Source: Synechococcus sp. KORDI-100
GTDB taxonomy: Bacteria > Cyanobacteriota > Cyanobacteriia > PCC-6307 > Cyanobiaceae
Assembly (NCBI RefSeq): GCF_000737535.1
Contig: NZ_CP006269.1
Span: 2,046,001-2,110,000, forward strand
Direction: 5' to 3'
DNA: 64,000 nucleotides
Shown here piece by piece: positions 7,177 to 14,987 of the stretch; position 1 is the stretch's first letter, and each line of letters starts with the position of its first letter. Made by a program: the position numbers and the translations under genes. The notes beneath the pieces are model-generated. The model worked only from the letters and a program-made list of their open reading frames with translations. It searched no databases and was not told the origin of the DNA.

Positions 7177-7592
7177 CCGCTCCGGCCGGTCAACAGCTGA
7201 GGCATCAGTTCAGTCGCTTCAAGGAGAGGAAAAGCTGATCCCGCGTCCAGCTCACGCCCGATGGAGCTGTTCACCTCCGCATCAAACCGCTGCTGCACCT
7301 GATCGACCGCCTCGGCCCCAATCGCCTTCCACTGATCGCGGCTGGCCCATCGAATCAGCAATATGCCCTGTTCCAGCTTGGGATCCCAGTAAAGATCGCG
7401 GCCAAGGAACCCGTCCTGGCGCTCCAGCCAGGGTTGCCAGGTGCTCGCCTCCGCCTCCAGCCAGATCTGACGTTGCGCCGCAGGAACATCCAGCCGCAGC
7501 ATTTCAACAACGAACTCGGAAGCCAACACCGGGGACACCCACATGGTCAGGGCCACCAGCATCGCCAGGCAACCAGCGCTGATGCGGTTCAT
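7173..7592 (-). CDS. TIGR03792 family exported protein
   Basis: A 139-aa protein with an N-terminal signal peptide ([18 protein letters not shown], cleavage after VLA near residue 24). A compact domain follows ([42 protein letters not shown]) that resembles the uncharacterised cyanobacterial TIGR03792 family and ABM-like ferredoxin folds. It overlaps trmD-ispF upstream and larB downstream by 4 nt each, so it sits in a tightly coupled minus-strand operon. Function is unknown; the location is probably periplasm or thylakoid lumen. Confidence 0.78.
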
Positions 7593-8800
7593 GCCTTCTC
7601 AAGCAGCGCGACGGCATGGCAGCTGATTCCCTCCTCTCGTCCCTCAGCGCCGAGTTGCTCATTGGTGGTGGCCTTCACTCCAACAGCATCGGCTGCAATG
7701 CCGATGCGCTGGGCGATGTTCCCTCTCATCGTCTCAACATGCGGTTTGAGCTTGGGCCGCTCGGCAACCACGACAGCATCCACATTGGCCACACGCCAAC
7801 CCCGCTCACCCACCAGCGCCACCACCTGCTCCAGCAGCTCCAGGCTGTCGGCCCCCTTCCATTTCGGATCAGTGGGGGGGAAATACCTGCCGATATCTCC
7901 CAGGGACAGGGCGCCGAGCAGAGCATCCATCACGGCATGAACAAGCACGTCAGCGTCGCTGTGACCATCGAGCCCAAGCCCCTTGGGATGCTCAAGGCTG
8001 ACGCCTCCAAGGATCAGAGGTCGACCCGGAACAAGACGATGAATGTCGTAGCCATTGCCGATGCGCAGCTGCATGGCCTCGCTTGCGTCGGGCTCCATTG
8101 TCTCGTCTTGCCAGCGTGCATAGAGATCAGGTCTGCGTTCCTGGGTACGGTGCTCACGCTGCTGCTGCCTCCAGGCCGCAATCTGACCATGGTCGCCACT
8201 GCGCAACACCTCCGGCACGGCCATGCCCTGAAACACCGCAGGCCTGGTGTAGTGGGGATGCTCCAGAAGCAGGGCACTGTGGCTTTCCTCCACCAGTGAA
8301 TCCGCCGTACCAACGGTGCCTGGCAACAACCGCAGCACGCCGTTGATGATCGTCATTGCCGGCAGCTCACCACCGGTGAGCACGAAATCACCGATCGACA
8401 CCTCTTCATCGGCCAGGGAGCGAATCCGCTCGTCAAAGCCTTCGTAATGGCCACAGAGCAGCAGCAGCTGGTCGTGGTCCCTGGCCCAGCGCTGAAAGTC
8501 GCTCTGTTGGAGAGGTTGTCCCTGGGGTGACATGAGCAGCACCCGAGACTGTTCACGACGGGGAATGGATTCCACCGCGGCAAACACCGGCTCGGGTTTC
8601 AGCACCATCCCGGCACCACCGCCATAGGGCTCATCGTCAACCTTGCGGTAGCGGTCGACGGTGAAGTCCCGAGGATTATGTCGATGCAGTTCCGCGATTC
8701 CTGCGCTGAAGGCTCGCCCGAGCACTCCGAGCTGCAACAAGCTGTCGAAACAATGCGGCGCCAGGCTCACCACATCGAATCGGTATGGCGCCCTCGCCAT
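7589..8800 (-). CDS. trmD-ispF: TrmD-IspF fusion: tRNA m1G37 methyltransferase + MECDP synthase
   Basis: One 403-codon frame holds two complete enzymes. Residues 1-~230 are TrmD, the SPOUT methylase making m1G37, with [11 protein letters not shown] and the knot sequence [15 protein letters not shown]. From Met243 the sequence is a complete IspF (161 aa) for isoprenoid synthesis, with [11 protein letters not shown] (metal Asp/His), [13 protein letters not shown] and [13 protein letters not shown]. No stop lies between them. The internal ATG (8072-8074) is preceded only by GAGG at very short spacing, so internal initiation is possible but weak. Either a genuine fusion protein is made or two products arise from one frame. 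Confidence 0.93.
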
Positions 8801-10269: not shown

Positions 10270-10812
10270 ATGCGCACCCACTGGCGAGTCCAACCCCTCG
10301 CAGCGGCCCTGATCATGCTCAGCGTCAGCGGCTGCGCCACTGACCAGACCTCGAAATAGACCTCTCCAGACGCTGAGGAAACGACAGAGGTTGTTCAGAA
10401 CAGCACGACAGCCGAAACAAGCGAGGCTGCGCCAACAAACGAGGCCGATCAATCCGTGGAGACCGTGGAATCGGCGGAGGCTTCCCAGGACAAGGGGAAC
10501 GCTGACAGTGAACCAACCGCCAAGGTCGTTGAAGGGAAAGCCTCCTGGTATGGCCCAGGCTTCTACGGCAACAAAACCACCAGCGGCGAAGTTCTCGAAA
10601 AGGGCACGATGACGGCCGCCCACAGCAGCCTGCCGATGGGGACGGAGGTGAAAGTCACCAGACTTGATACCGGCGAGAGTGTGACTGTGGAGATCAATGA
10701 CCGAAAGCCGTTCAAGGAAGGAACCGTGATCGACCTGGCCCACGGCGCAGCGGAAGCCCTCGACATCGATGACGACGGCACTGCCAGCGTGAGCATCGAG
10801 GTGCTTGACTGA
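10270..10812 (+). pseudogene. rlpA: RlpA-like lipoprotein with in-frame amber codon 30
   Basis: ATG 10270 opens a lipoprotein signal (LIMLSVSGC, lipobox Cys at codon 22), but codon 30 is TAG (10357-10359). Beyond it the same frame continues to 10812: a Glu/Thr/Ala-rich linker, then the RlpA double-psi beta-barrel (GKASWYGPGFYGNKTTSGE, MTAAHSSLPMGTEVKVT, VEINDRKPF). Without the stop the protein would be 180 aa. RlpA proteins are outer-membrane lipoproteins acting on denuded peptidoglycan glycans. As written, only a 29-aa peptide or an unexported domain from GTG 10456 can be made. It could be a recent pseudogene, a sequencing error or amber readthrough. Confidence 0.75.
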
Positions 10813-10834: not shown

Positions 10835-11773
10835 TCAGGGCGCATTGACGCCGTACCCGAGTTCGCTCAGCCGTTGTGGCTTGCTGCGCCAATCTGGCAC
10901 AACCTTCACGAACAGCTCGAGGTACACCGGCCCATCGATCAGGGTCTGCATTTGCAGGCGGGCACCCTGACCGATCGTTTTGAGCATGCCCCCCCCCTTG
11001 CCGATCAGGATCCCCTTCTGGCTTTTGCGTTCCACCAGCACAGTCGCCAGCACAGCCGTACGCCCGTTGCCTTTGCCCTTGGCTGGTATCTCCTCAACGC
11101 GGTCGATGGTCACCGCCACGCTGTGGGGAACCTCCTCGCGGGTGTGCAGCAGCACCTGCTCCCGGATCAGCTCCCCCATCAGCACCCGCTCAGGCTGATC
11201 ACACACCATCTCCGCTGGATAGAGCTGGGGACCAGACGGCAGCATCGCCGCCATGTCCACGGTCAGGGCAGAGCATCCCTCCCCAGAGAGCGCACTGCAT
11301 CGATACCTGGGCCAATCCAATCCAGAGAGCAACTCGTCGTACGCCGCTTCAGAGGGCTCCTGCTGGTCGGGCGCAACCTTGTCCCATTTGTTCAGGACAA
11401 CGATCACGGGAAGCGGCTGCTGGCGCAGCAGGTTGACGATGAAGGCATCGCCGCGGCCCGGTCGCTCACATCCCTCCAGCAACAGCACCACCAGATCCAC
11501 TTCACCGATGGCGCTGCGGGCGCTTTGCACCAGACGCTCTCCCAGCAGGTGGTGGGGCTTGTGAATTCCGGGCGTGTCCACCAGAACCATCTGCGCCACA
11601 TCCGTCGTGAGGATGGCCCGCAAACGATTGCGGGTGGTCTGGGCCACAGGAGAGGTGATCGCCACCTTCTCCCCCACCAACTGGTTCACCAGGGTGGATT
11701 TGCCCACGTTGGGCCGGCCGATCAGAGCGATGAAACCGGAGCGATGGTCCTCCGGCAACGGTGTGCTGAGCAT
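10835..11773 (-). CDS. era: GTPase Era
   Basis: Ribosome-assembly GTPase that binds the 3' end of 16S rRNA. G motifs are intact: GRPNVGKST (G1), DTPGIHKP (G3) and NKWD (G4). The C-terminal KH domain contains LIGKGGGMLKTIGQGARLQMQ in shortened form and ends in WRSKPQRLSELGYG. At 312 aa it is the normal length. It converges on the rlpA remnant and diverges from the hypothetical gene at 11834. Confidence 0.96.
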   Translation of the reverse strand: MLSTPLPEDHRSGFIALIGRPNVGKSTLVNQLVGEKVAITSPVAQTTRNRLRAILTTDVAQMVLVDTPGIHKPHHLLGERLVQSARSAIGEVDLVVLLLEGCERPGRGDAFIVNLLRQQPLPVIVVLNKWDKVAPDQQEPSEAAYDELLSGLDWPRYRCSALSGEGCSALTVDMAAMLPSGPQLYPAEMVCDQPERVLMGELIREQVLLHTREEVPHSVAVTIDRVEEIPAKGKGNGRTAVLATVLVERKSQKGILIGKGGGMLKTIGQGARLQMQTLIDGPVYLELFVKVVPDWRSKPQRLSELGYGVNAP

Positions 11774-11833
11774 GGTTCAAGTCTGCGCCGTCATCTTCCG
11801 GGCCATAACCTGCGCCCACTGGAGTGGCGTGCC

Positions 11834-12352
11834 ATGGCCGATCTGCAACCCACCTTTCAGCAGGCGATGGAGATCACGGCCTCCTGGCTGCGCCAGTGGG
11901 AGAATGAGGAGATCAGCGATGAGGTGCTGGCGGATCGCATCGGCGAGATGGTGGCCAGCAGGGATGGAGCTCGCGGATTCTTTGTGGTGAGCCTGGCGGG
12001 AGACAGCGCCCTGATGGATCGGCTGCCCGATCCGGTGGTCGGCCAGCTGCGCGCTGCAGGGGAAGGGGTGGTGGATCTCAGCGTGCGCAACCTGGCGATG
12101 AGTTCCGCGATGGCGCTGCAGCATCAACGCACCGGTGATGAAGCCCAGCAGGCAGGGTCGGAGCAGGTGAGAGCGCGCTGCACCGAATTGCTGCGATTGC
12201 TGGAACCGGATCTCGTCAAGCAGCGGCTCGAACAGCTACTTGAAGGTTGCGATAACCGGGGGGACGACGTCAGTTTTCTGAAGCGATGGGGTTACGACGA
12301 CGGACAGATACGAGCCATCAGCGCCAGTGCCCTTGCTGTGGCGCATGACTGA
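11834..12352 (+). CDS. conserved hypothetical protein (172 aa)
   Basis: The frame is open upstream, but protein-like sequence starts at ATG 11834 (MADLQPTFQQAMEITASWL). The product is soluble, acidic and helical, with a conserved-looking core DEVLADRIGEMVASRDGARGFFVVSL and a C-terminal helical part (ELLRLLEPDLVKQRLEQLLEGC). Proteins of this type occur in marine picocyanobacteria without assigned function. It is divergent from era with a 60-bp gap and converges on the porin remnant. Confidence 0.72.
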   Translation: MADLQPTFQQAMEITASWLRQWENEEISDEVLADRIGEMVASRDGARGFFVVSLAGDSALMDRLPDPVVGQLRAAGEGVVDLSVRNLAMSSAMALQHQRTGDEAQQAGSEQVRARCTELLRLLEPDLVKQRLEQLLEGCDNRGDDVSFLKRWGYDDGQIRAISASALAVAHD

Positions 12353-12357
12353 GCGAC

Positions 12358-12612
12358 TCAGAAGGTGATGCTCATCTGAAGCCCGAGCACAAGCGCATCA
12401 TCAATCTCGCCCTGTCCCATCGGATTGAAAACGTATTGAACACTTAACTGAACCGAAGCGTTACCGCCCAACATCACCTGATATCCCAGCTCCAACACAG
12501 ATTCCCAGATCGGTCCGTCAGGGATGGCACGACTCCAGTTGGCATTGCTCAGACCGACGACGATGGCATCAAACGGTCTGCTGCGGATCACGCCCTTGCC
12601 CACCCAGCCGCC
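12358..12612 (-). pseudogene. 3' remnant of an OprB-type porin gene
   Basis: About 83 codons encode only the C-terminal end of a carbohydrate-selective outer-membrane porin: alternating beta strands (WESVLELGYQVMLGGNASVQ, SVQYVFNPMGQG) and a terminal Phe (ALVLGLQMSITF), the outer-membrane insertion signature. Upstream the frame reads GGWVGKGVIRSRPFD and then loses porin character, because the sequence becomes the MFS gene below in another frame. The porin's signal peptide, SLH domain and most of the barrel are missing. Confidence 0.78.
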
Positions 12613-13045
12613 CCCGCTGATCGGCTGGTGACACCTCCGCGATGTAGGCGGGCGTCAGAATGCTGGCAAAGCCGACACCCAGGCCGCCGATCACCCTCCA
12701 GCTGATCAAGGCGAACAGAGACTGCGCCAAAGCCGAGCCGATCGCGCTGGCCAGGAACAGGACCGCCGCCACCACCATGCTGTGGCGACGTCCGATCCGA
12801 TCCGACAGCCATCCTGCAGAAAGGTCACCAACAGCTGATCCCAGCAGGGCTGCCGCCACCGACCGACCGAGATCATCAGACGAAATATTGAACACCTCGC
12901 AAATCGCACCGACGGCACCATTGATCACGGTGGTGTCGTAACCGAAGAGAAAACCGCCCAAGGCCGCCGACAGGGCGATCTGAAGAATGAAACGCCATCG
13001 TTTGCGTTGGCGTTTCTGTTCAGGGAGTGAAAACGAAGGCTCCAC
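12569..13045 (-). pseudogene. 5' remnant of a sugar-porter MFS transporter
   Basis: From ATG 13045 the frame gives the first five or so helices of a sugar porter (GlcP/GalP/XylE type): GGFLFGYDTTVINGAVG in TM1, the loop motif GWLSDRIGRRHSM, then RVIGGLGVGFASILTPAYIAE and the PADQRGRLG motif after TM4. Family members continue for about 300 more residues. Here, after RGRLG, only ten unrelated residues follow before a stop. The frame runs straight into the porin remnant, so a deletion removed the 3' two-thirds of this gene and the 5' part of the porin gene. Confidence 0.82.
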
Positions 13046-13131
13046 CGGTACATCTGCGTCGTCTCAATGCAGCGCGGATGAGTCGGCCTGCCATCCATGC
13101 CGCAAGCAAACGAAACGGTAATTTCAGTCAC

Positions 13132-13154
13132 AAAAAAGCCCCAGACAAACTGGG
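13132..13154 (-). terminator. Rho-independent-like terminator of the Bax-inhibitor gene
   Basis: Read on the minus strand: stem CCCAG, loop of five, stem CTGGG (13140-13154), then GC and six T (13132-13137). It lies 38 bp past the stop codon of the gene at 13192-13953. The stem is short (5 bp), so strength is uncertain. Confidence 0.5.
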
Positions 13155-13191
13155 ACGCAAGTGATGTTGAAACTCAGATCAACTGAATCGA

Positions 13192-13953
13192 TCAGTCTCT
13201 TCGTCCACCACCGTTGATGACAATGATCAATCGAAGGATGAAGATAAAAAGATTGATGTAAGTGAGATACATGCTTAGGGCGCCGGCCAGGTACTGCTCG
13301 TCCTGGTAGGTGCGAGGCATCGTGTAGAAATCGACGAAAGCGGCGCCGATGAACAGCACTGTGCCGAAGCCCGCGATCATCAGCTCAAAGCTGGTGCCGT
13401 GGAACATCTCGGGAGCAAAGAATCCGCCGATGAATTGGACCACCATCGCCAGGATCAAACCGATCAGTCCGAGCCCGACCACTCCCGAGAGGGCCTGTCC
13501 GACGCTGTCGCTCATCCGGCGACCCACCACTGAGGCGATCACAAACGTGATTCCAGTGGCAAGAGCAGCTGTTCCGACAGCGCCAATGCCGGCGACAGCT
13601 CCTGCGTAGGCCACCAGGCCGCTCAACGTGAAGCCTGTGATCAAGCTGTAAACGGCAAGCAGAGGAAGTGCCGTGGAGTTGTTTCCTTTCATCGCCACGT
13701 TCTGAGCGACGAAGAAAAGAATCAGGTTGCCGATGAGAGCGACCAAGAAGAGGGGCAGGAACAGGGGCGTTGCCATCAGCGAAAGCCCGCCGATCACGCC
13801 GACCGAGGTGAGCACCATGCCGCCCCCCACATAGGGAAGGGCTTTGTTGACCACATTGGGGCCGACCAGGGCACTCGATTGAGCCTCGCGAATGGCCTGT
13901 TGAAAATTGCTGCTGGCTGGCATGTTGACCGAACCATTCGTCACTTCAGACAC
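13192..13953 (-). CDS. Bax inhibitor-1/YccA family membrane protein
   Basis: A 253-aa polytopic inner-membrane protein of the BI-1/YccA group (possible calcium-leak or stress-regulatory channel; the function in cyanobacteria is not known). After a soluble N-terminus of about 40 residues there are seven hydrophobic segments, with family features such as VYSLITGFTLSGLV, VDFYTMPRTY and YLTYINLFIFILRLI near the C-terminus. The ATG start is unambiguous. It is a single gene with a terminator-like hairpin 38 bp downstream. Confidence 0.88.
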   Translation of the reverse strand: MSEVTNGSVNMPASSNFQQAIREAQSSALVGPNVVNKALPYVGGGMVLTSVGVIGGLSLMATPLFLPLFLVALIGNLILFFVAQNVAMKGNNSTALPLLAVYSLITGFTLSGLVAYAGAVAGIGAVGTAALATGITFVIASVVGRRMSDSVGQALSGVVGLGLIGLILAMVVQFIGGFFAPEMFHGTSFELMIAGFGTVLFIGAAFVDFYTMPRTYQDEQYLAGALSMYLTYINLFIFILRLIIVINGGGRRD

Positions 13954-13991
13954 TTTGCCAGTGCTGACAAGGGTTTGAAGTGTGGATCCCC

Positions 13992-14987
13992 CTAACGGTG
14001 CATTGACCGTGACACTTTGCCGCTGTCCCGCTTCGCATAAGCCTCGACAACCCGTTGCACCAGCGGGTGACGCACGACATCCGCAGACGTCAGACGACAG
14101 ACGGCGACACCCTCCACACCATCGAGAACCTCCGAGGCTTCGACAAGACCGCTGAGCTGTCCAGAGGGCAGATCCACCTGTGTGGTGTCACCGGTGACGA
14201 CCATGCGAGATCGTTCGCCAAGCCTGGTGAGCACCATGCGCATCTGCGCCGGCGTGGTGTTCTGTGCCTCATCGAGGATCACGAACGCCTCACTCAGGGT
14301 CCGGCCACGCATGTAGGCCAGAGGGGCCACTTCAATCACACCCTTCTCGAGCAACACCGTGGTTTTTTCAGGCCCCAGCAGGGAATGCAGCGCGTCGTAA
14401 AGGGGCCTCAGATATGGATCCACCTTCTGTTGAAGATCGCCTGGCAGGAATCCCAGACGCTCCCCAGCCTCGACAGCTGGCCTGGTAAGAATCAAGCGCT
14501 CCACCTTGCGTTCGGTAAGCATCCGGACGGCCAGAACGGTGGCCAGAAACGTTTTTCCTGTGCCGGCAGGACCCAGGGCAAAGGTGAGGTCGTGACGCTC
14601 CATGGCATCGACATACTTCTTCTGCCTCAGGGTTCGAGGCCTGAGGAGATTGCCTCTCTGGCTTCGTGCCAGAACCTGCTCGCCCATGGCGGCATGGTCA
14701 TCGGCACGGCCGGTGTTCAGCGCCCCGAGGGCCGTCTGCAGATCCACAGCCGTAATCGCCTGGCCGTCCTGCCAGATCGGTCTCACCAGCTCCACCACGG
14801 CTGCGGCCCGTTCGATCTGGGTGGGACGGCCGGTGATCACCAGTTGAAGGCCGCGCAACACCAGGGCGGCACCAGTGAGTGCCCCCAGACGATGCAAAGT
14901 CGCTTCCGCTTCCCCGGCCAGAGCCAGAGCCGCGTCGGGATCAGGAAGGTCGAGAACGAAGCGGCCGTTGTCGCCGTCGTCAGACAC
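13992..14987 (-). CDS. phoH: PhoH-like ATPase
   Basis: A 331-aa cytoplasmic PhoH/YbeZ-family protein, implicated in other bacteria in RNA and ribosome quality control with YbeY. It has an N-terminal KH-like region, Walker A ALGPAGTGKTFLA and Walker B AFVILDEAQN, followed by TRLGERSRMVVTGD. The catalytic residues are all present. It lies 8 bp downstream of rpsP on the same strand, so it probably belongs to the ffh-rpsP-phoH unit. Confidence 0.92.
   Translation of the reverse strand: MSDDGDNGRFVLDLPDPDAALALAGEAEATLHRLGALTGAALVLRGLQLVITGRPTQIERAAAVVELVRPIWQDGQAITAVDLQTALGALNTGRADDHAAMGEQVLARSQRGNLLRPRTLRQKKYVDAMERHDLTFALGPAGTGKTFLATVLAVRMLTERKVERLILTRPAVEAGERLGFLPGDLQQKVDPYLRPLYDALHSLLGPEKTTVLLEKGVIEVAPLAYMRGRTLSEAFVILDEAQNTTPAQMRMVLTRLGERSRMVVTGDTTQVDLPSGQLSGLVEASEVLDGVEGVAVCRLTSADVVRHPLVQRVVEAYAKRDSGKVSRSMHR

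Follow-up and report, generated by a model that had tools for sequence, protein, structure and literature searches.

The window analysed here is a 64,000-nucleotide stretch of the Synechococcus sp. KORDI-100 chromosome. On its minus strand, the ORFs and their alignment confirm that the beginning of a sugar-porter MFS gene runs directly, in a different frame, into the end of an OprB-type porin gene, as had been proposed from the sequence alone. The features of the locus are as follows; the YccA-like, PhoH-like and Era-like names of the neighbouring genes are ones that we take to apply.

10835..11773, minus strand, right neighbour, Era-like GTPase gene, placed by synteny (near the locus in some relatives, not all)
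11834..12352, plus strand, right neighbour, conserved gene without a Pfam match, matched beside the pair in relatives
12358..12612, minus strand, OprB-type porin gene, 3' remnant comprising its last 84 codons and the stop, matching the end of the Pfam OprB profile
12569..12601, minus strand, out-of-frame tail of the MFS-remnant ORF, lying in porin DNA (ORF list and alignment)
12603..12612, minus strand, the join, ten bases GGCGGCTGGG that fit either MFS or porin, where the DNA homologies end
12603..13045, minus strand, sugar-porter MFS gene, 5' remnant comprising its first 148 codons (Pfam Sugar_tr/MFS_1, NCBIfam SP)
13131..13156, minus strand, terminator-like hairpin and T-run in the spacer that separates the MFS remnant from the YccA-like gene, found by eye
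13192..13953, minus strand, left neighbour, conserved YccA-like membrane protein gene, adjoining the pair in relatives
13992..14987, minus strand, left neighbour, PhoH-like gene, placed by synteny

An Rfam scan of 11000-14500 returned no family at threshold. Two further observations were made on this side of the window. At 10270-10812 (plus strand), a gene for a lipoprotein-like product whose DPBB_1 domain is of the lytic-transglycosylase kind carries one in-frame stop soon after the signal region, and its homologue in the genome G023 (L029, 1800-2297) is open. At 7589-8800 (minus strand) a single ORF of 403 aa comprises what are presumably a TrmD-like part and then an IspF-like part, and a similar single ORF of 399 aa is found in genome G002.

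The MFS-remnant ORF (13045-12569, 158 aa) matches Pfam Sugar_tr over residues 24-149 with an E-value of 7.3e-29 (101.4 bits, the cut-off being 22.3). The match covers positions 2-141 of the 452 in the profile, and intact relatives are 472-518 aa long, so the window copy is a remnant and not a complete SP transporter. Its score against the SP subfamily model TIGR00879 (E 3.8e-31, 108.2 bits) lies below the whole-protein cut-off of 237.8. The piece was matched in 17 of 59 genomes, the window's own included, at E <= 0.001. The best five matches outside the window genome (G009, 81%; G002, 80%; G018, 79%; G054 and G049, both 55%) each end at query residue 149. The porin ORF (12603-12358, 81 aa) aligns with OprB at the C-terminal end, with an E-value of 1.4e-9 (38.3 bits, the cut-off being 22.9). 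It spans profile positions 280-372 of 372 and the G018 copy is 453 aa long, which makes the window copy a remnant rather than a full-length barrel. At E <= 0.1, 7 of the 59 genomes gave a match to this piece, which besides itself was matched strongly only in G023 (79%) and G018 (75%); a scan of the 81-aa remnant against the named genome contigs found no relative. The earlier estimates of about 150 MFS and about 83 porin codons need small corrections, the MFS count to 148 and the porin count to 84 if the ambiguous bases are included.

DNA homology with the MFS genes of G009 and G018 stops at 12603, and homology with the G023 porin extends to 12612. The join therefore lies inside 12603-12612, which narrows the interval of about 12595-12615, readable as either gene, that the sequence-only reading had given. 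The two parts of the fused stretch are in different frames and both are highly identical to real genes, so that the match is not due to chance. At the homologous place, the ten join bases agree with the porins of G023 at 10/10, MIT 0701 at 9/10 and MED650 at 7/10 positions, and with the MFS gene of G009 at 8/10 and those of three other relatives at 6-7/10. The MFS and porin sites of relatives other than G023 agree with each other at 4-7/10; when MFS and porin positions are paired at random, about 0.06-0.08% of the pairs attain 8/10. Microhomology at the breakpoint, read through the relatives' sequences as proxies, is plausible rather than proven.

If the two remnants were left by a deletion, strains with the intact adjacent genes should exist, and such strains were found, with the pair in the same order and on the same strand beside the same neighbours. 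G018, whose porin is identical to the MED650 copy, is Synechococcus sp. MED650, of the same genus, represented by a draft MAG (75% complete, 5% contamination). It encodes an intact MFS protein of 472 aa and, after 24 bases, an intact OprB of 453 aa, in the order PhoH-like, YccA-like, MFS, OprB, conserved gene, Era-like; the same neighbours flank the scar in the window. In MED650, 2,106 bases separate the two points that meet in the window, which is thus missing about 2.1 kb. Prochlorococcus sp. MIT 0701 likewise has the adjacent pair, with the same left neighbours (YccA-like and PhoH-like); on its right side the conserved gene is matched at residues 109-170 only. The MIT 0701 and MED650 records came from a scan of named genome contigs with the MFS alignment, in which the best 80 of 528 were kept.

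Altogether, the intact adjacent pair is present in seven genomes: G018 (MED650), G063 (whose porin is identical to that of MIT 0701), G074, G103, G104, G168 and G245. Position, order and strand are the same and the left neighbours are alike in all seven, and the conserved gene on the right is also matched in these genomes. An Era-like match adjoins the locus in G018, G103, G104, G168 and G245, and the parts read of MIT 0701/G063, G074 and G136 showed none. In a 399-genome draw of the order, an MFS match at E <= 1e-60 was obtained in 13 genomes, one match being the window stub and the other 12 long copies. Among the long copies, seven have an adjacent OprB gene (G063, G074, G103, G104, G136, G168 and G245) and five do not (G002, G009, G120, G192 and G262). 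The pair in G136, which belongs to another genus (L160, L174), is nearly full-length with in-frame stops, one in the MFS gene and two in the porin gene; provided that the sequence is correct, this would be a further decay of the same MFS-OprB pair. Two genomes of the same class, G049 and G054, have MFS proteins 55-58% identical over 447 aa, and the 8.5 kb read there yielded no match to the MED650 porin at E 1e-3.

Within the genus, the YccA-like gene served as the anchor for the locus and was present in 30 of 34 genomes. The draft genome G012 (6% contamination) has two YccA-like copies, on contigs C27 and C30, the second of which possibly reflects mixed strains. Across the 30 loci the pair is intact in one (G018), the MFS gene stands alone in two (G002 and G009), and two are scarred, namely those of the window genome (G000) and G023. 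At the other 25 no trace of the pair remains and the neighbours lie 62-315 bases apart. A search of these 25 sites for traces of the pair gave weak hits at nine, which were counted as empty. In seven (G031, G033, G020, G021, G005, G007 and G016; best E 9.6e-5, in G016) the hit lies within residues 1-22 of the G009 ORF used as query, which precede the start common to relatives, and is read as probable terminator-like DNA after the YccA-like gene rather than MFS sequence; the other hits comprise 6-7 aa with E-values of 0.085-0.21. Elements resembling the 13131..13156 hairpin can be seen by eye in empty sites.

A tree built from as many as four genes neighbouring the locus, each present in 24-34 of the 34 rows, places the window genome and G023 as sisters with a support of 1.0; several of its deep branches have low support. 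On the assumption that the pair was present ancestrally and was at no point regained, this tree requires at least seven losses of the intact MFS gene, or eight with the window scar counted apart, and at least four losses of the porin gene, or five on the same basis. Regain by recombination would reduce these counts. The scar in the sister G023 differs from that in the window. Its MFS gene is entirely gone, and porin residues 150-173, approximately 174-205 and 365-453 persist, spread over three reading frames and interrupted by stops. Judging from the sequences, the internal porin break in G023 (L029, 3843-4275) ends at most about 10 bases from the porin breakpoint of the window. Because the window deletion and a separate porin deletion in G023 both end there, about 10 bases apart, the GC-rich porin stretch around GGCGGCTGGG could be a deletion hot spot at a locus under recurrent loss in marine Synechococcus, a suggestion that we regard as doubtful.

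Neither remnant in the window contains a stop or a frameshift, and so a deletion would have to be fairly recent. Over the first 148 codons, the window MFS gene differs from three same-genus copies with a dN of 0.138-0.143, compared with 0.060-0.097 among those copies. With MIT 0701 as the reference, the increase is small (0.243 for the window, 0.206-0.231 for the same-genus copies). The porin remnants of the window and G023 give a dN/dS of 0.19, against 0.04-0.08 for four neighbouring genes of the same genomes and 0.08 for the intact porins of G018 and MIT 0701. These observations are consistent with a deletion that took place in the window lineage once it had diverged from that of G023, the genes having been free of constraint during only a part of the interval since. 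This estimate is rough, dS being saturated in most pairs and the stretches short.

Bacterial deletion pseudogenes can form at short direct repeats. The scar in the window resembles these in having a short shared stretch at the join and in that both end genes leave remnants, and nothing essential differs; the ancestral repeat of the window is one that we infer. We consider it highly likely that the intact pair was ancestral here and that one deletion of about 2.1 kb, probably via a short repeat, left two dead stubs; the proposal that a single deletion between neighbouring genes accounts for both remnants is thus supported by the intact pair in relatives and by the length missing relative to MED650. 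The ancestral unit would have comprised a XylE/GlcP-type inner-membrane sugar transporter followed by an OprB outer-membrane porin, flanked by the YccA-like gene on one side and, on the other, by the conserved gene that adjoins era. The deletion would have taken the MFS gene from about codon 149 onward, the spacer and the porin gene to about codon 369, probably by replication slippage, or some other route independent of RecA, at a GC-rich repeat of 8-10 bp. The transporter would thereby have been shortened by about two thirds, and the porin deprived of its start, its signal peptide and most of its barrel. Relaxed selection may have been the underlying cause.

Three other accounts of the fused stretch were weighed. 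A mis-assembled join that skips about 2.1 kb might be suspected where the join sits in a short, GC-rich shared stretch. However, the genome is a single contig of 99.96% completeness, it holds no strong Sugar_tr match elsewhere (the sole other match is weak, at 47.8 bits over profile positions 48-353), and the sister genome carries a scar of its own at the same place; an artefact is very unlikely. That the pair was never complete here, and that the two fragments arrived separately, would suit its patchy presence and the many empty loci in the genus. It is hardly credible given that order, strand and position agree with the intact pair in three genera and that the MFS and porin homologies meet within ten bases.

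The fused stretch might instead be a working gene, or two small working genes, as both pieces are open and their pairwise dN/dS values against intact copies are low (0.10-0.13), although such values are also expected if most of the divergence predates the deletion. A working fusion was rejected on the grounds that the two pieces are out of frame with each other and the greater part of each gene is missing, the profiles being covered only in part. Moreover, the dN/dS of the sister porin remnants is approximately two to five times that of the four neighbouring genes, in contrast to the intact porin pair, and a functional product of either form is extremely unlikely. Very probably, then, the locus holds an ordinary deletion pseudogene pair at a site from which the pair has been lost in relatives too. 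Among the matches listed in the literature, titles and abstract openings make no mention of this scar.

The closest solved structures to the intact G002 MFS protein are XylE (PDB 4gby, E 1.5e-77) and then GlcP (4lds, E 2.7e-58). It aligns over nearly its full length with both the D-xylose:H+ symporter XylE and the glucose transporter GlcP, whereas the window keeps the N-terminal third alone. The natural reading of these sequence likenesses is that the lost unit was a putative sugar importer with its own outer-membrane porin. According to a review (PMC10515406), glcP of Nostoc punctiforme has an adjacent oprB (Ekman et al., 2013), and a strain without glcP and oprB does not grow on glucose. The ancestral arrangement resembles that system as described there, a sugar-transporter gene lying beside a putative carbohydrate porin gene; unlike it, the window holds stubs only, and the sugar substrate of the picocyanobacterial pair is putative. 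Marine picocyanobacteria are described, in PMC6330958, as taking up glucose with very high affinity via GlcH (Pro1404), which is treated there as distinct from GlcP and would share with the lost pair the broad function of sugar uptake.

The window genome retains six other OprB matches, five of which span nearly the whole profile; at 2300063-2301334 it also has a gene that matches MFS_2 (GPH-type) strongly. The loss of a sugar-uptake locus that had been read from the sequence therefore stands for this locus and does not extend to uptake overall, since other OprB porins and a GPH-type transporter are kept; sugar uptake itself was not necessarily lost. The finding leaves the known mechanisms unchanged. 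The gene decay seen here is ordinary, and the parallel loss is mildly interesting. What the window offers is a view of a picocyanobacterium part-way to losing a probable sugar-uptake unit. Taken together, the intact pair, the MFS gene alone, the two scars and the empty site form a series for studying how mixotrophy genes get discarded.
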